Source of the DNA: a virus | Length of the DNA: 20,655 bases | Virus record (IMG/VR): IMGVR_UViG_3300044808_000020 | Coordinates: 1 to 20,655 of that record | Direction: 5' to 3' (one strand) | Part shown: one piece after another, positions 1,646 to 12,793 of the stretch | Numbering within the stretch: the first letter of the stretch is position 1 | Layout: each line of letters begins with the position of its first letter | The notes under the pieces: generated by a model | Database searches by the model: none | Told to the model about the DNA's origin: nothing | Seen by the model: the letters and a program-made list of their open reading frames with translations, nothing else | Translations under genes and position numbers: made by a program

Positions 1646-2266
1646 CTAACCCAGGATGCTTCGAGCCCAGGTTTCAAACTCGGAGGCCGTGGCCTCAAGT
1701 TCCTCGAGCGAGACGTCGCCCATCATGTCGAGAAGGGCTGTACCATCCTCCCACAGTGCGGGGAGGTCCAGCAACAGCTGCTCGAGAATCTGGTTGTAGG
1801 TGTCGTGGGCGAGGTACACGTTCTGCATGAGCTTCTTGACCTCAAGCAGCGGGTCGAGCGTGCCCTGCCTGGCGACGTTGAGCACGTCCGACTGGTCCCG
1901 AGACTTGTAGTACGCTCGCCGGTAGAGGTAGGCGAGGGCTCCTGCGACAGCGTTCCCGGTGGCCCGACGAGTCTCGACGTACATCAGGAGGCGGCTCATC
2001 TGGATCGTCTCATGCGACGTCACCAGGAGAACCTCGCCGGTAGTGCCGGCGTTGGCGCTCGCCTGCCACATGCTCTTGCGGCCATCCTTGCGGGTGGCCT
2101 CCTTCGCTCGTCCTGAGTCCCTCAGCGCCCACACGTAGCGGCGAGCGGTCTGCGGGTGCCAGGTGAACTCGTGTGCGATCTGCTCGATCGTCTTGGGCGT
2201 CGAGATGAACTTGAGCAGCTCGGACAGGATTCCGGCCCGCTGAATCTCCTCCATCGAGGCGGTCAT
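1646..2266 (-). CDS. Winged-helix DNA-binding protein
   Basis: 206-aa protein, probably a transcription regulator or DNA-binding accessory protein. Residues ~8-70 look like a winged helix-turn-helix: an initial helix, then TIEQIAHEFTWHPQTARRYVWAL as the HTH, then a basic wing with KDGRKSMWQ. The remaining ~130 residues are mostly helical and acidic, with no recognised motif; they could form an oligomerisation domain. The ATG start at 2266 overlaps the stop of the preceding gene in an ATGA arrangement, so it is translationally coupled and is the last gene of the block driven from near 4100. It ends 82 nt before the helicase start, in front of a new promoter. The fold assignment is by eye; no specific target is implied. 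Confidence 0.8.
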   Translation of the reverse strand: MTASMEEIQRAGILSELLKFISTPKTIEQIAHEFTWHPQTARRYVWALRDSGRAKEATRKDGRKSMWQASANAGTTGEVLLVTSHETIQMSRLLMYVETRRATGNAVAGALAYLYRRAYYKSRDQSDVLNVARQGTLDPLLEVKKLMQNVYLAHDTYNQILEQLLLDLPALWEDGTALLDMMGDVSLEELEATASEFETWARSILG

Positions 2267-3008: not shown

Positions 3009-3524
3009 CTATACTCCGTGATTGGGAACGGTGAACCCTGCGGCACGAGCACAAGCGTCTGCTGCTCGCTCTTCGGTGATGTAGTCAGGTGACGTGCGAC
3101 CCTGAGCGTTGCGGATGGCGTGGCACACTTCGTGAGCGGCCGCCCCCTGTAGCTCAGTGTTGTTGCCCCACGAGCCGGAGTCGACGAGCACCTTCTTCTG
3201 AGCGTAGATCGTCAGCCCGCCGACCGGAGCGCCCTGGTAGCGCAGAGTCGTCACGCCACGCTCCTGCGGCCACTGGCGGCACTCGAGCGTCCATCCTACA
3301 GGGAGGACCAGCCCCGGAGTGAGGTCGGCCGGGCAGGGGCCTCTCTGGTGGTCGCCCATCGTCCTCCAGTCCCAGCACGCCTCGTCCTCCTGGCAGGTGT
3401 TCGTCGAGTGGAACACGTAGCCTGCGGCCGGCTTACTCGAAACAACGTGGCCAGCGGCCACACCCACTCCGGCGGCGACGCTGAGCGCCAGCACCCCGGA
3501 GGCGATCACGGCCCGGAAGCTCAT
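3009..3524 (-). CDS. Membrane-anchored or secreted HExxH metallopeptidase-like protein
   Basis: 171-aa protein with an N-terminal hydrophobic segment at residues ~5-25 (VIASGVLALSVAAGVGVAAG), probably a signal peptide or anchor, so the rest likely acts outside the membrane. The C-terminal part carries HEVCH (131-135), a zincin-type zinc-binding HExxH, followed by EERAAD (151-156). This gives a downstream acidic residue as third ligand in the manner of gluzincins. Cysteines at 43, 50, 64, 82, 134 and 158 fit extracytoplasmic disulfides. The ATG at 3524 overlaps the upstream stop (ATGA); a longer N-terminus would run through the neighbouring gene and lose the signal segment. It sits in an early-type block rather than with lysis or tail genes. 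The substrate is unknown; a catalytically dead or structural role is possible. Confidence 0.8.
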   Translation of the reverse strand: MSFRAVIASGVLALSVAAGVGVAAGHVVSSKPAAGYVFHSTNTCQEDEACWDWRTMGDHQRGPCPADLTPGLVLPVGWTLECRQWPQERGVTTLRYQGAPVGGLTIYAQKKVLVDSGSWGNNTELQGAAAHEVCHAIRNAQGRTSPDYITEERAADACARAAGFTVPNHGV

Positions 3525-4045
3525 GACCGGCTCCCGAACACCGCTCGCATCGAGGCCGGTTGGGGCTGGACTTCCTCCATCCACGCCTCTGCCTCCTGCC
3601 TGGTGGAGAACAGCTTCCCAGCCGGGAGGCGGCACCACTGAGCGATCCCGCCGATGGTCAGGTAGTGCTCGATGATCCACCCGTTGTTCTCCGCCTCCTT
3701 CACGGTCTCACGAACGCCCTCGATGAAGCCCTCGCAGAACGCCAGGGCCTCGCCCTCGTCGGAGTTGCCCATCAGGTCTCCAGCGATGATGCGAGCGACG
3801 ATCCCCACGAGCGCCTCGTCGTTCCAGCACAGGAGGTTGATGCCGTTCCAGTAGGTCTCCGGGCTCTCGCCCTCGTCCCACTCCCCATCGTGGACGTCAT
3901 CCACTCGCAGGACAGCGGCGGTGACCGTGAGCTTGGTGTAGACGGACACGAACGAGGCGTAGTAGCCGTGAGTGGGAATGTCGACTGCGATGAGCGGGAC
4001 TTCGTTGTTGTCGAGGATGCGAATGTTCAGATTCGAGATGGGCAT
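3521..4045 (-). CDS. Hypothetical protein, first gene of the five-gene early block
   Basis: 174-aa soluble acidic protein, not recognised. The last ~45 residues (WIIEHYLTIGGIAQWCRLPAG, then KLFSTRQEAEAWMEEV) resemble the small beta-strand plus helix units seen in many phage proteins that end in a 'ST-EAE-W' helix. The middle contains a helical stretch ending FCEGFIEGVRETVKEAEN. The ATG at 4045 is preceded by AAAAGGAGCAAGCC, a strong ribosome site; the open frame extends upstream to 4129 but would cross the predicted promoter at 4082-4111. It overlaps the zincin gene by 4 nt. It is predicted to be the most strongly translated gene of its block. Confidence 0.82.
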   Translation of the reverse strand: MPISNLNIRILDNNEVPLIAVDIPTHGYYASFVSVYTKLTVTAAVLRVDDVHDGEWDEGESPETYWNGINLLCWNDEALVGIVARIIAGDLMGNSDEGEALAFCEGFIEGVRETVKEAENNGWIIEHYLTIGGIAQWCRLPAGKLFSTRQEAEAWMEEVQPQPASMRAVFGSRS

Positions 4046-4081: not shown

Positions 4082-4111
4082 ATTGTGACAGATTGCTCCG
4101 ATGGAAGTCAA
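4082..4111 (-). promoter_or_regulatory. sigma70-like promoter of the 4045-1646 gene block
   Basis: On the minus strand TTGACT (4111-4106), 18 nt, then CACAAT (4087-4082). The -35 is part of ATTACTCGTTGACT, which shares the 11-mer ATTACTCGTTG (4119-4109) with the helicase promoter. The predicted leader is about 30 nt with AAAAGGAG. A dense TAGGC/GCCTA array begins 37 bp upstream of the -35. Confidence 0.55.
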
Positions 4112-4147
4112 CGAGTAATGTAGGCGCAACTTCTCCCCTTTCCTCTG

Positions 4148-4327
4148 GCCTATTCTCAGCGTTACGTCTGCCTAGGACTCGCCTAGGTTCGCCTAATGTA
4201 ACAGGAGGGTAACAAGTTAGGCAAAGTGCTGGTAGAGCGTAGGCAAACGTAACAGGAGGTTAGGCGAACCTCTGCCTACGACACTAACGAGGGTGCCCCC
4301 ACTAAGAAGGGGCACCCGAGTGTAGGC
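4148..4327. repeat. TAGGC/GCCTA array with nested direct and inverted repeats
   Basis: Non-coding stretch of about 180 bp with nine GCCTA or TAGGC pentamers at 4148, 4170, 4181, 4191 (forward), 4218, 4240, 4261 (reverse), 4274 (forward) and 4323 (reverse). Those at 4170, 4181 and 4191 are spaced by 11 and 10 bp, about one helical turn. A perfect 12-bp inverted repeat, AGGTTCGCCTAA (4185-4196) and TTAGGCGAACCT (4260-4271), encloses two copies of the direct repeat GTAACAGGAGG (4198-4208 and 4249-4259). It lies upstream of the promoter at 4082-4111. It could be a regulator-binding array or part of a replication origin. Confidence 0.7.
4291..4317 (-). terminator. Strong hairpin, probable terminator of the 5458-4560 unit
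   Basis: GGGTGCCCC (4291-4299), a 9-nt loop, GGGGCACCC (4309-4317): a perfect 9-bp GC-rich stem. There is no T tract on either side, as is common in actinobacterial terminators, so the strand is assigned from context: it follows the minus-strand 54-aa gene and precedes the next minus-strand promoter. Confidence 0.6.
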
Positions 4328-4559: not shown

Positions 4560-4724
4560 CTAGACAGAGGCGATCTCCTTCCACTTGGAGTCGACGAGGG
4601 CGATCATGGCGGCGACGTCGAGGATCGCCGGCCGGAGGTAGGTGACCTCCTGCTCGGAGGCCTTGAAGTCGAGGTCGAACCTGACCGGCGAGCCGGCGAC
4701 GACCGAGATGGTTGACATGCTCAT
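4560..4724 (-). CDS. Small hypothetical protein (54 aa)
   Basis: 54-aa protein starting MSMSTISVVAGS, with alternating hydrophobic residues in the first half (SPVRFDLDF) and a helical C-terminal half (ILDVAAMIALVDSKWKEIASV). Not recognised. The start is ATG at 4724, preceded by ACGAAGGGACAAGAAC, the same ribosome-site type used for the helicase and methyltransferase genes. An alternative ATG lies two codons later. A longer frame upstream to 4880 is rejected because it is Arg/Gly-rich shadow of the 216-aa gene. It is probably co-transcribed with the 216-aa gene 83 nt upstream; the spacer contains the stem-loop AGGAGC-CGCC-GCTCCT (4775-4790). Confidence 0.72.
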   Translation of the reverse strand: MSMSTISVVAGSPVRFDLDFKASEQEVTYLRPAILDVAAMIALVDSKWKEIASV

Positions 4725-4807: not shown

Positions 4808-5458
4808 CTAGCCCTCGGAGGCCTCGACCCGGTGGCCGATGGTCCGAGTGATGCCGTTCACCGTGACCGTGGTCTCCCAAGGCTTCGTGAGCTCGGTCAC
4901 GCCGTTGGCCTCGAGCGCCGACTTGAGGGCCGGAACGCCAGCCCGCTTGAAAGCGTAGAACGCCAGACCCGAGAACGTGTCGTTGGCGTAGCTGGAGGTC
5001 GAGCCGTCCTCGGCCTTGACGTAGTGGGAGCCGCTGGAGGACTTGGCGACCCGAGGCGACGTCGACCCCGAGCCGGAGCCCTTCGGCGCCTTCGGGATCT
5101 CCAGGTCGGCCACCTTCAAGAGCGTGGCCATGGCCTTCGCCGTGTTGACGAGCTCGTCACGCTCGGTGCGGAGGGTCGACAGCTCGGCCCCGACATCGGC
5201 CTTCTGAGCCTTCAGGTAGGCGACCACGGCGTCCTCGATGGCCTGGCGGGCCTCGTCGGCGGCCGACTTGGCGGCCTCCAAGGCGTCGACGGCGAGCTGC
5301 TCGGCCTCGACGAGCGCCAGCCCGTCGTCGGTGTTGCGAATCGCCGTGCGGGCCTCCGCCTTGCGAGCGGTGACGTTGCCGGCGCTCGCCGTCATGCGAG
5401 CGTCGATGGCCTTGATCTGGTCGAGTGTGGCGGTCAGGATGGACTGGTCGAGCTTCAT
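4808..5458 (-). CDS. Coiled-coil protein with C-terminal globular domain (216 aa)
   Basis: 216-aa protein, not recognised by family. Residues 1-~118 are Ala/Glu/Lys-rich and continuously helical with heptad character (coiled coil). Residues ~125-148 form a Ser/Gly linker (SGSGSTSPRVAKSSSGS). Residues ~150-216 are a small globular domain ending in beta strands (TTVTVNGITRTIGHRVEASEG). The ATG at 5458 follows GAAGGGGCAAAAA. It has its own good promoter (5520-5548) and very strong GC3 codon bias, suggesting an abundant early protein. Candidate roles are a DNA-organising or scaffolding-like factor; this is inference only. Confidence 0.82.
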   Translation of the reverse strand: MKLDQSILTATLDQIKAIDARMTASAGNVTARKAEARTAIRNTDDGLALVEAEQLAVDALEAAKSAADEARQAIEDAVVAYLKAQKADVGAELSTLRTERDELVNTAKAMATLLKVADLEIPKAPKGSGSGSTSPRVAKSSSGSHYVKAEDGSTSSYANDTFSGLAFYAFKRAGVPALKSALEANGVTELTKPWETTVTVNGITRTIGHRVEASEG

Positions 5459-5519: not shown

Positions 5520-5548
5520 ATTATGCGCTCATCGGCCGGACATTGCAA
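5520..5548 (-). promoter_or_regulatory. sigma70-like promoter of the 216/54-aa genes
   Basis: On the minus strand TTGCAA (5548-5543), 17 nt, CATAAT (5525-5520). The predicted transcript start is near 5513 and the leader about 55 nt. A TTAGACCTA box (5557-5549) abuts the -35, as an operator would. The TTAGGC inverted-repeat element at 5584-5641 lies 36 bp upstream. Confidence 0.6.
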
Positions 5549-5583
5549 TAGGTCTAACGATATTTCCCAGGATTCTTTTTCTC

Positions 5584-5641
5584 TTAGGCAGCCTTATGTC
5601 ACTCGGTAGGCGAGCCTAACGGAAAAGGTTGGGCTGCCTAA
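5584..5641. repeat. Nested TTAGGC inverted repeats
   Basis: Outer perfect 10-bp arms, TTAGGCAGCC (5584-5593) and GGCTGCCTAA (5632-5641), enclose an inner palindrome TAGGC-GA-GCCTA (5607-5618). The pentamer and the distance to the promoter are as in the array at 4148-4327, which suggests binding sites of the same protein. Confidence 0.65.
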
Positions 5642-5649
5642 TTCGGCGG

Positions 5650-5665
5650 GTGAGGCGGGCCTCAC
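5650..5665. repeat. Perfect palindrome GTGAGGC-GG-GCCTCAC
   Basis: Seven-base arms around GG, followed on the plus strand by TTTCT. No plus-strand gene precedes it, so an operator is more likely than a terminator; as RNA it would form a 6-bp stem with a CGGG loop. Confidence 0.45.
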
Positions 5666-5930: not shown

Positions 5931-5997
5931 GGTTTCTCGGCCCGCCCCCCACCGGGACGTTAAGGACGTACCGCCAGAATAACTCCAAATCACCCAT

Positions 5998-6080
5998 TAG
6001 ACCTAATAATATCCACGCATATCCTCGACATTAGACCTACCGGGAGAAATAAGAATCCCCCTCGTCTAAGCCTACCGGGA
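5998..6080 (+). promoter_or_regulatory. Operator-like boxes before the tail-fibre operon
   Basis: TTAGACCTA at 5998-6006 and 6031-6039, and a related TAAGCCTA at 6067-6074. The last two are part of a 10-bp direct repeat CCTACCGGGA (6036-6045 and 6071-6080) with a 35-bp period. A weak -35/-10 pair (TCGACA 6025-6030, AATAAG 6048-6053) would place a box between the hexamers. Sites are seen; their regulatory role is inferred. Confidence 0.45.
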
Positions 6081-6115: not shown

Positions 6116-6523
6116 GTGGCGTCAATCAACGCACTGAGGAGACGGCTAGGGCTGGGGGGCGGAAGCTCAGCGGCGACTCGAGGCACGACGAACGGCCAGA
6201 GGACGGGGCTGCGCTTCTCGCCCGGAGCGAAGATCGACACGTCTCAGGTAGACGACCGGCGGGTGGCTCCGTCAGAGTCCCCGATGCTGTCACACGCTGA
6301 GGGACGAGCGGATCGCTACCAAGGGCCGGCGGCTGGGACGGGGCCTCGTCAACCTGGAGATGCGGGGACGTGGAGGCCTGACCCCAGCGAGAGTCGAAGG
6401 AAGGCCGAGGCAGACGCCAAGACGAGGGCGCCCCGTCCTACCGGCACCGTCCCTGTAGGCTTGGTGTCCAGAAGTCCAGTGTCTCGAGAGGCACTAACTC
6501 GACGAGTTCAGAGGAGAAAATAG
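6116..6523 (+). CDS. Small basic, largely disordered protein upstream of tail fibre
   Basis: 135-aa protein rich in Arg, Gly, Ser and Pro, with a basic N-terminus (NALRRRLGLGG) and C-terminus (TRRVQRRK). The only distinctive segment is FSPGAKIDTSQVDDRR at residues ~34-49. Probably intrinsically disordered; a minor virion or DNA-binding protein is possible but not shown. The start is GTG at 6116 after AAAGGAGTGCGGA. The stop TAG is immediately followed by the ATG of the tail-fibre gene, whose ribosome site (AGGAG) lies inside this gene, so the two are coupled. It is the first gene of the plus unit that starts after the operator-like boxes. Coding status is supported by ribosome site and spacing more than by composition. 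Confidence 0.68.
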   Translation: MASINALRRRLGLGGGSSAATRGTTNGQRTGLRFSPGAKIDTSQVDDRRVAPSESPMLSHAEGRADRYQGPAAGTGPRQPGDAGTWRPDPSESRRKAEADAKTRAPRPTGTVPVGLVSRSPVSREALTRRVQRRK

Positions 6524-8701
6524 ATGGGTTCAGTGTCGGATCACGAAAACGCTGCCTTGCCTGGAGTTGGCTCAATTGCGGACAGAGAAATCGCTTTCTG
6601 GTCTAGCGGATCGTTGGGCGGAGATGCTCTGGCCAAGGCCGCAAACCTCTCAGACCTTGTTAGTGCTGCGGCGGCTAGAGCGAACCTCGGGCTGGGTGGG
6701 GCCTCTATTCTCAGCGTCGGAAGCGGGGCTGGTGACGTTGCGGCGGGGGACTCTCCTGGAAACCTGGCTTACCAGCTCGCCTTCGGCGCCGGACCTGCTG
6801 GAGTTATCAAGCCGTGGCACGTTCCGGTACCTTATGGGGCTGAGCTATGGGCGCTCGTTAACTTTCGAGCCGGGTTCAATGTCACGGAACTGGCACCGTC
6901 GCTTACTCCAAACAGCACGACGCAGACCAAGCGAACGCTTGTAAGCGTCGGAACAATCCAAGAGGACGACGCTTTCCAACTTTCAGGTCGGGTCATCTCG
7001 ATGCCGAATGTCGGTTGGGCTTACATTCAGGTCAAGCTCGTAGACGCCGGGGGTACAGACCTGGCGGGGACGACTCCGCAAGCGTTGTTCACCAACGGAT
7101 TTGCTCATGCGGCGAATGAGCCATTCCTTTTCGACTTCAAGCCGAGTAACTTGTCAGGCTCTGGTGCCTTTGTTGAGGTACAGTTGCAGCTTTACAACAA
7201 CACCACGGCCGGCTCTGGACTTCTCGCCATAGACAATATGAGTTTGAGGCGAGCGACGGGCCATTCCCGGCCGATGTTCTTCTCTGCCGGCACGCTATCC
7301 CCACCAACTACCAACAACCCTATTCTCCACCAGCAAATATTCAATCCGGCTACCGGGGTTTGGCAGAACACCCGCACCGACTTCGCTACTGACGGCGCTC
7401 TGAGCGTGGCTCTCGGTGCAATTAACCATTTCGATGGGCCGTCTCCGTGGCGATACCCGCCCGCCGATCCCCTATTTCTCGCAGCCACTGGGAACGTCAC
7501 CACCCCTGTTGGCTCGGCCGAGGAATTGGCTGCCAACGCCCTAAGTCGTCCGGTTCGAGTCGGCAACAACGATCAGATTCTAGAAGTGCTCAAGCAGGAT
7601 GGGGTGACGTGGGAGTTGCGAGGTAACGCCCACGGGGGCGAGACTCTAATCTCCGTGGCTTCCCCGAACCTGGTCTACGAGGTTGATAATGGAGATGGTG
7701 TATGGATTCCGTGGGTAGGAACTGGTAACCTGCTGCGGACCTGCCGCCGGTTCCGGTTCACCTTCAACACCCAGCTCGCTCGCTCTGCCCCAGACTCCGA
7801 CGTGTTCGCCACAGTCTCCCATGTGGCGACGTTCTTCCCGGACGGCATGATGCGGATGGATCGCACGATGACTTTTACCAAGGCGATGACGCTCCGCATG
7901 ATGATTGACTGGATGAGCAGCCATTCAGTTACTACTCCGAAGCTCGGCAGGATAGGTGCTGGTCATCAGGTCACGGACGAGATAGACATTTACACCAAGG
8001 CCGCTCGGCCGGTCGCTCCTACGGCCGCCACGGCGACGGTTGGCGGTGTACTGCCAGCAGCGACCTACACGTACACATACACCGACCTCACCGAGGGTGG
8101 TGAAACCACTCCGGCGATTGCAGTTACTCAAGTCACGACCGGCTCGACATCTACAGTTACCCTGACCTTGCCAGCGGTTCCATCTGGAGTAACAGGTCGA
8201 CGCATCTACGGCAGATCAACTGGCGTTATGCGGCAGGTGCTCCTGACCACTCTTGGGCCAGTCACGACATGGACGGATGATGGTTCTATCCCCGCAATCG
8301 GAGCGCAGCCGCCTCGTGTAAACACAGCTAGGCGTCTCGATCAGCCCACGAGCATCGCCCTAGACTCCGCCCTGTCCGACTCGGCAACGTGGTCGGTATG
8401 GAAAGACCTCCCGACCGGCATGTGTTTTGGCAACATCTTCGACCGGGATGCTGTTCTCGGCCGTACTGGTGTTGTCGCCGCCCGGACCAAGCTCGAAGCG
8501 GGAAGTGGGATCGTTAAGAACTACATTCTTCCGGTATGGTTGAACAGTGATACAGCATTAATCGCCGGTGGGACTGTGTGGACAGCTACTCATTGGTGTA
8601 TGTCTTATTGTCCTGCCGACCCGAATGGACGATGGGAACAAGAGATTGCTGACCGTGCCGCTTTCCTCTCGTCCCTCAAGACGCTCTACCCAGCGACATG
8701 A
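6524..8701 (+). CDS. Tail fibre / receptor-binding-like protein
   Basis: 725-aa extended beta-rich virion protein, expected to form a fibre that binds the host surface. Residues 41-59 contain NLSDLVSAAAARANLGLGG, the short helical 'NLSDL...AR.NLGL' unit typical of tail-fibre N-termini. Residues ~90-243 look like a jelly-roll carbohydrate-binding module ending in AIDNMSLRR. Residues ~495-595 look like an Fn3-type domain (AATYTYTYTDLTEGGETTP, then GVTGRRIYGRSTG). The C-terminal ~120 residues are unassigned and would be the most variable receptor-contact part. The codons are visibly less GC-biased than in the early genes, in line with separate acquisition. Its stop is 3 bp from the convergent minus gene. 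It sits away from the head operon. Confidence 0.8.
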   Translation: MGSVSDHENAALPGVGSIADREIAFWSSGSLGGDALAKAANLSDLVSAAAARANLGLGGASILSVGSGAGDVAAGDSPGNLAYQLAFGAGPAGVIKPWHVPVPYGAELWALVNFRAGFNVTELAPSLTPNSTTQTKRTLVSVGTIQEDDAFQLSGRVISMPNVGWAYIQVKLVDAGGTDLAGTTPQALFTNGFAHAANEPFLFDFKPSNLSGSGAFVEVQLQLYNNTTAGSGLLAIDNMSLRRATGHSRPMFFSAGTLSPPTTNNPILHQQIFNPATGVWQNTRTDFATDGALSVALGAINHFDGPSPWRYPPADPLFLAATGNVTTPVGSAEELAANALSRPVRVGNNDQILEVLKQDGVTWELRGNAHGGETLISVASPNLVYEVDNGDGVWIPWVGTGNLLRTCRRFRFTFNTQLARSAPDSDVFATVSHVATFFPDGMMRMDRTMTFTKAMTLRMMIDWMSSHSVTTPKLGRIGAGHQVTDEIDIYTKAARPVAPTAATATVGGVLPAATYTYTYTDLTEGGETTPAIAVTQVTTGSTSTVTLTLPAVPSGVTGRRIYGRSTGVMRQVLLTTLGPVTTWTDDGSIPAIGAQPPRVNTARRLDQPTSIALDSALSDSATWSVWKDLPTGMCFGNIFDRDAVLGRTGVVAARTKLEAGSGIVKNYILPVWLNSDTALIAGGTVWTATHWCMSYCPADPNGRWEQEIADRAAFLSSLKTLYPAT

Positions 8702-11637: not shown

Positions 11638-12113
11638 GGAGTAGCCATCCAGTAATCCGGGCCAGGGCCGAAGCAGGTCTAACACTCGCTCAGGCGTCGG
11701 CAGAGGCCGGTTGTCATCTCCAGGCATTTTTCCTCCAAGAGCAGGGAGTCTATCCTCATATCCTTCCAGCCATCGGGGAGTGGATACAGTTGCATGGTTA
11801 CTACTTACCGGAGGCTGAGCGTGAGTACAGGGAGTTCCAGAAGCGAAAGAGAGTCGCTAGCGGTGAGCAGTTCGGAGTCTCGATTCTCGAACTTGGACCT
11901 CCCGAACCTAATCCGATTGTCGGGCTTCGTGCACAACTTCTCCTCAGCCGTATGGGCTTCGCAAAGCGGTTCTGCCTTCATCCAGGAATGCTCTACCGAG
12001 TGGAAGAAGGAATCTCTCGTTCCCTTCCGTCGCAGTTGGCTGAGGCCCTCTTAGAAGCTGGAGTTCCGATCGAGGTAGTGGATGAGCTTCGTGATCGGTT
12101 GGAGGAACAATGA
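11619..12113 (+). CDS. XRE-like helix-turn-helix protein
   Basis: 164-aa protein whose N-terminal ~60 residues match a lambda-repressor-like HTH: IRARAEAGLTLAQASAEAG as helices 1-2, then LQAFFLQEQGVYPHILPAI as recognition helix and following turn. The C-terminal ~60 residues appear to hold a second similar unit (LLLSRMGFAKRFCLHPGMLY, then SLPSQLAEALLEAG), so it may be a tandem-HTH regulator. It is the first gene of the head operon and overlaps the small terminase start by 4 nt (ATGA). The start is uncertain: ATG at 11619 and GTG at 11628 are the only options and neither has an upstream ribosome site; AAGGAGT lies just downstream. It may be a late-operon regulator or a terminase-associated DNA-binding protein. 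Confidence 0.72.
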   Translation: MRSVLSRSSHPVIRARAEAGLTLAQASAEAGCHLQAFFLQEQGVYPHILPAIGEWIQLHGYYLPEAEREYREFQKRKRVASGEQFGVSILELGPPEPNPIVGLRAQLLLSRMGFAKRFCLHPGMLYRVEEGISRSLPSQLAEALLEAGVPIEVVDELRDRLEEQ

Positions 12114-12793
12114 GTCTTTCTGATTCGATGATTGATGTCCTGACATACATCGAGCAGGTTTGGTGGGAGGATAACAAGTCTGTTCCCACTGACGAGAAGA
12201 TCGCTGAGGCTACAGGGGTGGGCCTCCAGACGATCAAAGGTTACTGGAAGGACTCGAACTTCCGAGCAGCGTTGAACGCTCGAGGCGTTACGTTCGTTAA
12301 CGAGATGACCAGCGGCAAGGCGTTGTCGTATGCTCAGCTTCAAGTGGCGAACATGCTCATGAACATCATGGACAAGCGCTCGCTCCGTGAGAAGCTCCAG
12401 GCGGCTAACCTTCCAGGTGTAACTCCGGCTCAGGTGGGAGCCTGGATGCGTCAGCCTGCCTTCCAGGCGCATCTCCGTCGTCGAGCGCAAGTGTTGTACG
12501 ATGACGCTGATGTCTCAGCAAATCTGGCTCTGGTGAAGGCCATCGACGCCGGAGACCTCAAGGCTGTTCAGTTGTTTCTCGAGATGACTGGACGGTACAC
12601 TCCACGATCCACGGTGGACGTTAACATACATGCGGTGTTGGCGAGGGTTGTGGAGATTGTATCCATCCATGTGCGTGACCCCGCTATCTTGGAGGCCATA
12701 GCACACGACATGGAGAACCTGGAGTTGGGTAAGCCACAGGCGATCGTGGTCTCCAGCGAAGTTGTACTCGACAAGGTAAACATCACCCTATGA
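12110..12793 (+). CDS. terS: Probable terminase small subunit
   Basis: 227-aa DNA-binding protein. The N-terminal HTH (VPTDEKIAEATGVGLQTIKGYWKDSNFRAALNARG, residues ~25-59) is followed by a helical region containing a second HTH-like unit (LPGVTPAQVGAWMRQPAFQAHLRRRA) and a helical segment suited to ring oligomerisation. Its position, two genes ahead of the large terminase in the head operon, is the standard place for the small subunit that recognises packaging DNA. The start ATG at 12110 is coupled to the XRE-like gene. The call is by architecture and context, not by a diagnostic catalytic motif. Confidence 0.72.
   Translation: MSLSDSMIDVLTYIEQVWWEDNKSVPTDEKIAEATGVGLQTIKGYWKDSNFRAALNARGVTFVNEMTSGKALSYAQLQVANMLMNIMDKRSLREKLQAANLPGVTPAQVGAWMRQPAFQAHLRRRAQVLYDDADVSANLALVKAIDAGDLKAVQLFLEMTGRYTPRSTVDVNIHAVLARVVEIVSIHVRDPAILEAIAHDMENLELGKPQAIVVSSEVVLDKVNITL

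Follow-up and report, generated by a model that had tools for sequence, protein, structure and literature searches.

A probable operator array of phased palindromes in the early region of a podovirus-like phage genome fragment

Background

In the OR and OL regions of phage lambda, palindromes of 16-17 bp recur about every 23 bp within an early control region, and the iterons of the lambda origin resemble tandem palindromes at 22-23 bp. The stoperators of cluster-A mycobacteriophages are short repressor sites that occur in many copies per genome and are asymmetric and scattered, and the SRL and SRR elements of T7 are short repeats lying beside a packaging site or terminal repeat. Direct repeats also extend over the TerS promoter in the pac region of SPP1 (PMC4737164), and Microbacterium phages of clusters EC, EG and EI carry conserved short intergenic motifs, which in EG are inverted repeats (PMC7302621). 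On the host side, IdeR/DtxR binds the sequence TTAGGNNNNCCTAA as a single dimer (PMC8464063). We found no description of the control logic in the podovirus lineage that includes Arthrobacter phage Jasmine.

Here, we analyse a 20,655-bp IMG/VR fragment, hereafter the window, meaning the whole stretch of DNA studied. Its left part carries leftward genes, including those for a helicase and a winged-helix protein, and its right part carries rightward TerS-like, TerL, portal and capsid genes. The relatives are podovirus-like actinophages, including Arthrobacter phage Jasmine and its kin, Cellulosimicrobium phage DS1, Microbacterium phage Shocker and the metagenomic genome ctEqG8, and the hosts of the window phage are probably actinobacteria. 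Judging from sequence comparison, two repeat clusters among the leftward genes probably form an operator array in which a palindrome common to an actinobacterial phage lineage, GTTAGG-N4-CCTAAC, recurs in full and half copies that are clustered and in phase with the helix. An operator that is defined and keeps strictly to a 23-bp register offers a concrete handle on the control logic of this lineage.

Sequences and comparisons

The operator was compared across about 60 TerL/TerS relatives. The search for it was prompted by the window, but the key tests were run with the window excluded, and the operator matrix was trained on 53 sites outside the window. Searches with o174, the helicase or o216 returned no close relative with the same early region; the closest relative, L002, lacks that region. 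The Streptomyces griseosporeus JCM 4766 contig NZ_BNBR01000011.1 (46,429 bp; L108/L197) is apparently a phage genome belonging to the lineage, with sequence overlap between its two ends. The genes that matter for the argument are as follows.

1646..2266, minus strand: winged-helix ORF, candidate binder, conserved in relatives as part of the leftward operon
3521..4045, minus strand: first ORF of the leftward operon, leading to the winged-helix ORF and an SNF2-type helicase
4808..5458, minus strand: coiled-coil-like ORF (o216), 216 aa, in the place of the Jasmine Lsr2-like gene
12110..12793, plus strand: TerS-like HTH protein (PF13022); candidate binder

Homology of o216 to Lsr2 was considered and rejected, as it has no detectable similarity to the Jasmine Lsr2-like protein.

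Architecture of the two arrays

The first cluster (array 1) lies in the gap between the start of a leftward ORF at 4045 and the end of the next leftward ORF at 4560.

4082..4111, minus strand: leftward promoter-like site P1, TTGACT-18-CACAAT, downstream of array 1 (-35 at 4111, -10 ending at 4082; consensus match only)
4121..4327, unstranded: array 1, ten TAGGC/GCCTA units at 4121+, 4148-, 4170-, 4181-, 4191-, 4218+, 4240+, 4261+, 4274- and 4323+
4161..4176, unstranded: weaker operator-like dyad GTTACG-TCTG-CCTAGG, centre 4168.5, rank 8
4182..4197, unstranded: operator-like dyad CCTAGG-TTCG-CCTAAT, centre 4189.5, left arm of the 12-bp inverted repeat, rank 6
4198..4259, plus strand: twin GTAACAGGAGG copies, 51 bp apart, within a 17-nt 88% direct repeat
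4238..4253, unstranded: operator-like dyad CGTAGG-CAAA-CGTAAC, centre 4245.5, rank 3
4259..4274, unstranded: operator-like dyad GTTAGG-CGAA-CCTCTG, centre 4266.5, includes the right inverted-repeat arm, rank 4
4291..4317, unstranded: 9-bp perfect hairpin GGGTGCCCC-CACTAAGAA-GGGGCACCC, on the far side of array 1, without a T-run

Ranks are among all 16-mers of the window under the window-excluded matrix. The initial annotation had described nine TAGGC/GCCTA units in the non-coding interval 4148-4327, three of them at 10-11-bp spacing, and a perfect 12-bp inverted repeat enclosing twin direct repeats, and this description holds: the interval lies within the gap, the nine units become ten if counted from 4121, those at 4170, 4181 and 4191 are 11 and 10 bp apart, the arms 4185-4196 and 4260-4271 are 100% complementary, and GTAACAGGAGG occurs at 4198-4208 and 4249-4259. 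Of the flanks that it named, a terminator-like hairpin and an early promoter, the promoter has a counterpart by consensus match in the promoter-like site P1, but the hairpin at 4291-4317 has no T-run and falls inside the interval rather than beside it.

The clustering and the geometry of the units both exceed chance. No other pentamer of the window is as clustered as TAGGC: it occurs 9 times in 180 bp, a count that did not exceed 7 when the region was shuffled 5000 times, and its clustering reaches a Poisson score of 12.3, where the best downstream word has 5.7. On the minus strand (4148, 4170, 4181, 4191), neighbouring units are 22, 11 and 10 bp apart, and on the plus strand (4218, 4240, 4261) 22 and 21 bp, while three inverted unit pairs have a common axis at 4206.5-4207; none of 20,000 random placements of ten sites produced four same-strand pairs at 21-22 bp together with three coaxial inverted pairs.

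Each arm of the inverted repeat is itself near-palindromic (TAGG-TTCG-CCTA), which indicates that one dyad is present twice here and that the arms are not the sides of a stem. The region does fold better than its shuffles (z of -5.2 for RNA on the minus strand, hairpin included, and -3.8 for DNA), as would be expected if the inverted repeats formed a structured RNA or single-stranded DNA element, but good folding is expected of any array that has units on both strands. A conserved RNA fold was rejected because the arrays at the same spot in relatives (L061, DS1, L042, L076 and L091) do not stand out; array 1 also lies upstream of P1, and so outside the P1 transcript, which counts against an RNA, and Rfam and tRNA scans of the window gave no match, the lack of an Rfam match again speaking against a folded element. 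We regard such an element as extremely unlikely.

TAGG-N4-CCTA is exact within the dyad at 4182-4197, and the dyad at 4161-4176 forms a 14-bp, 93% inverted repeat with 4240-4253. Most units of array 1 are half-sites, those at 4218, 4274 and 4323, for example, having no good second half, and only three full dyads score well, at modest values (about 5, where shuffled windows average 1.3 matches above 4 each).

A second TAGGC cluster at 5585-5665, absent from the initial annotation, is more regular.

5520..5548, minus strand: leftward promoter-like site P2, TTGCAA-17-CATAAT, for the ORF starting at 5458 (consensus match only)
5583..5665, unstranded: array 2, four operator positions with implied centres 5590.5, 5612.5, 5634.5 and 5657.5 (spacing 22, 22 and 23 bp)
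5997..6074, unstranded: related word in three copies 34-35 bp apart, TTAGACCTA at 5997-6005, TTAGACCTA at 6031-6039 and CTAAGCCTA at 6066-6074, upstream of the rightward ORF at 6116

Array 2 contains the two best operator matches of the window, GGTAGG-CGAG-CCTAAC at 5605-5620 and GTGAGG-CGGG-CCTCAC at 5650-5665. Both arrays lie upstream of a promoter-like site and overlap none, array 1 at about 50-190 bp from P1 and array 2 at about 77-144 bp from P2. A TAGGTCTAA copy at 5549-5557 adjoins the -35 of P2, and the TTAGACCTA repeats at 5997-6074 and 5549-5557 are possibly a second operator type. Among the relatives, the array word before the coiled-coil gene is seen in the window only, save for a single copy in L031.

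A palindrome common to the lineage

The 16-bp palindrome GTTAGG-N4-CCTAAC is present in the early/late control gap of relatives. When all tetramer dyads were scanned, TAGG-N4-CCTA came second of 3328 by site count and was the most widespread of the top few. With the window included, 12 sites with at most one mismatch lie upstream of TerS against 0 downstream, and at two mismatches the counts are 28 and 10; with the window removed, the hexamer ranking gave 11 sites in 7 loci upstream (208 kb) against 0 downstream (619 kb), a comparison between regions that differ in non-coding content too. In this ranking of all spacer-4 hexamer dyads, GTTAGG came first (P 6e-10), more than five orders of magnitude ahead of the runner-up (1.8e-4), and the excess is confined to the 4-bp spacer, no other spacer from 0 to 13 being comparable. 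Among the most enriched dyads upstream of TerS was also TCGAAC. SOS-box-like sites of the actinobacterial type, CGAAC-N4-GTTCG, occur in tandem 34 bp apart in L044 (1178, 1212, 1246), also in L041, and in L065 (2044, 3113), and L006 carries two GGTCTAGACC palindromes 19 bp apart, GntR/DasR-operator-like, at 8261-8290 upstream of TerS.

The copies keep a strict register. In seven phages they are spaced by 23, 45, 46, 48, 68, 69 and 92 bp, corresponding to a period of 23 (R 0.975) that was matched in 0 of 400 random sets, and degenerate copies, clearest in L109, occupy the intermediate rows of the 23-bp grid. In IMG/VR, 12 loci hold two perfect operator copies within 50 bp, compared with 0 for a scrambled control; these loci are mostly outside the lineage, several carry WhiB-family genes, and one of them, L209, has four near-perfect copies in 23-bp steps.

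The six best matches of the matrix in the 20.6-kb window (5605, 5650, 4238, 4259, 5627 and 4182) all fall in the two clusters, for which chance gives 4e-11. The window holds two strong and at least four weaker dyads of one consensus, with implied centres mostly 20-23 bp apart, although its spacings taken alone, with a free period, are phased only moderately beyond chance (reached in 7 of 400 random sets). The lineage-wide palindrome on a 23-bp grid explains array 1, and the initial suggestion of an operator array with helically phased, cooperative binding gains support from it and from the placement of the best matrix matches. A dimeric regulator would bind copies that lie about two turns from one another and face the same side of the helix, and the resulting cooperative nucleoprotein complex could set early transcription, as in tandem lambda-type operators. 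Protein binding, cooperativity and early-gene regulation are what we infer from these patterns, and the upstream placement would be compatible with repression as well as with activation. Several points weigh against this reading: the half-sites and modest scores of array 1, the position of both arrays outside their promoter-like sites, the other words that relatives have in arrays at the homologous spot, and the place of the operator in most operator-bearing relatives, which is nearer the rightward (TerS) side instead of ahead of the leftward early operon.

Tandem palindromes at 22-23 bp would also suit a replication origin, in which they would act as initiator-binding iterons like those of lambda ori, an identity that the initial annotation had put forward together with a GC-skew check. 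The cumulative GC-skew minimum of the window is indeed found close by, at 3906, but divergent gene layout and transcription would be equally expected to produce it. In the relative ctEqG8, DnaA boxes do cluster in this gap, with 5 in 300 bp and a density found nowhere else in that genome, but the gap of the window has no DnaA box, array 1 has a GC content of 0.55 and no AT-rich unwinding element beside it, so that the pairing of a DnaA-box cluster with an AT-rich element that marks a DnaA-dependent origin is absent there. It would furthermore be unusual for one origin to comprise two arrays apart from each other, both of them upstream of a promoter-like site, and we consider this identity unsupported and very unlikely. 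In ctEqG8 (L022), the five DnaA-box-like sites span 34184-34440 of the homologous gap, and two are perfect TTATCCACA.

The homologous gap in relatives

In several relatives, the gap has the same order as in the window: leftward gene, array, hairpin, leftward gene. The array words differ in many relatives, being CTATCC in Jasmine, CCTAGG in DS1, TATCCA in ctEqG8, GCATA in L031 and in L060/L061, CGTAT in L042, TCTCA in L050 and CGTGTA in L076 and L078, and TAGGC triplets were found in none of six relatives. Lack of conservation of the pentamer spacing had been named as refuting the initial reading; this lack is seen for the literal TAGGC, which other words replace, but not for the operator with its 22-23-bp spacing. 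Co-variation of proteins with shared array words gave no clear signal.

Several other elements occur in these gaps. The core CTCTGACCTGCG or close variants lie in the early gap of many relatives, several mid-array where the word is variable (L003 6365, L006 7175, L050 1864, L062 4175, L064 3941, L069 251, L072 5697, L076 5053, L078 987, L081 319, L088 831 and L197 9373); it was not found in the window. A hairpin with the conserved stem-loop core TATATAAGGAACGTTATA is common to two otherwise diverged gaps (L003 6435-6462 and L006 7261-7288), and in the jasmineviruses L104, L105 and L021, near 45072-45260, the short conserved palindromes CTATCAGATAG, ATTGTTCAAACAAT and ATAGACTTAGTCTAT, distinct from the CTATCC array, lie upstream of a leftward early promoter.

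The gap also bears on packaging. Direct terminal repeats of 1330 bp in Jasmine (where the repeat has been reported, PMC5513430), 1551 bp in Adat and 1558 bp in Casserole begin inside the hairpin directly after the corresponding, different-word array, and the window hairpin at 4291-4317 occupies the position of this boundary hairpin, the order of array, hairpin and next leftward gene being retained. Array and hairpin could thus mark a terminal-repeat boundary for terminase recognition and concatemer processing, the repeats being bound by the small terminase during packaging. The fast divergence of array words between phages, as is possible for packaging specificities, would fit this, as would the universal presence of a TerS-like protein, the operators that closely precede TerS in L201/L209 and several relatives, and the direct repeats that SPP1 pac likewise has over its TerS promoter (PMC4737164). 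Against it, the 484-bp terminal repeat of Shocker starts about 550 bp from the gap, inside a gene, the same operator is present at a second site of the window and in unrelated phages, and palindromic operators suit a dimeric regulator better than a TerS ring. We consider a packaging role unlikely, and favour the operator array.

Candidate binding proteins

The operator is common to unrelated actinophages, which suggests a host factor. Its core, TTAGG-N4-CCTAA, is the sequence published as the target that IdeR/DtxR binds as one dimer, TTAGGNNNNCCTAA, so that the likeliest binder would be a factor common to many actinobacteria. Half-sites and spacer are exact in relatives and carry one mismatch in the window at 5606-5619 and 4183-4196. 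The 19-bp double-dimer box TTAGGTTAGSCTAACCTAA, by comparison, reaches at best 15/19 in the window, all top matches deriving from the same dyads, and the corresponding spacer of 9 is not enriched in relatives. The conserved G/C flanks of the phage sites (9/12 flanks are G) lie outside the IdeR consensus and speak against IdeR, as does the missing enrichment of the 19-bp spacing; a control scan gave only 53 loci with other inner flanks, far more being expected if the flanks were irrelevant.

The alternative candidate is a phage protein, either the TerS-like PF13022 protein or the winged-helix protein. PF13022 is the only HTH family found in all relatives of the lineage that bear the operator, and a member adjoins the four-copy array of L209, but this universality is partly built in, since TerL served to select the loci and TerS to anchor them. 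The RHH and XRE-like proteins proposed earlier are weak candidates: an XRE-like protein was not found in five operator-bearing loci (L061, L065, L003, L006 and L109) and was set aside as binder.

A doubtful but conceivable extension is that tandem single-dimer IdeR/DtxR sites arose independently in the control regions of several actinobacteriophage lineages, with the host iron sensor serving as phage repressor or timing switch and the LexA-type boxes of L041/L044 and L065 representing a second case. With the host iron sensor as binder, the iron status of the host would feed into phage development. Deletion of dtxR in C. glutamicum raises induction of the prophage CGP3, but via SOS (PMC6173762), which is context and not support.

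Comparison with known systems

In layout, the arrays resemble lambda OR/OL in palindrome size, in the repetition at about 23 bp and in the location in an early control region. The sequences are unrelated, the window arrays lie upstream of promoters and not over them, and no CI/Cro-type gene pair was identified. The stoperators are similarly short and multi-copy, whereas the window sites are palindromic and confined to two clusters. In sequence, they resemble the IdeR/DtxR iron box TTAGGNNNNCCTAA of an actinobacterial regulator, which has the same half-sites and the same 4-bp spacer (PMC8464063); the phage sites add conserved G/C flanks and a tandem 23-bp spacing, most window units are half-sites, and the 19-bp double-dimer box is absent in the window. 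The EC, EG and EI motifs occupy several gaps near start codons, have other sequences and do not form phased arrays as in the window. SPP1 pac and T7 SRL/SRR likewise consist of short repeats, whereas the window carries what appear to be palindromic operators upstream of promoter-like sites.
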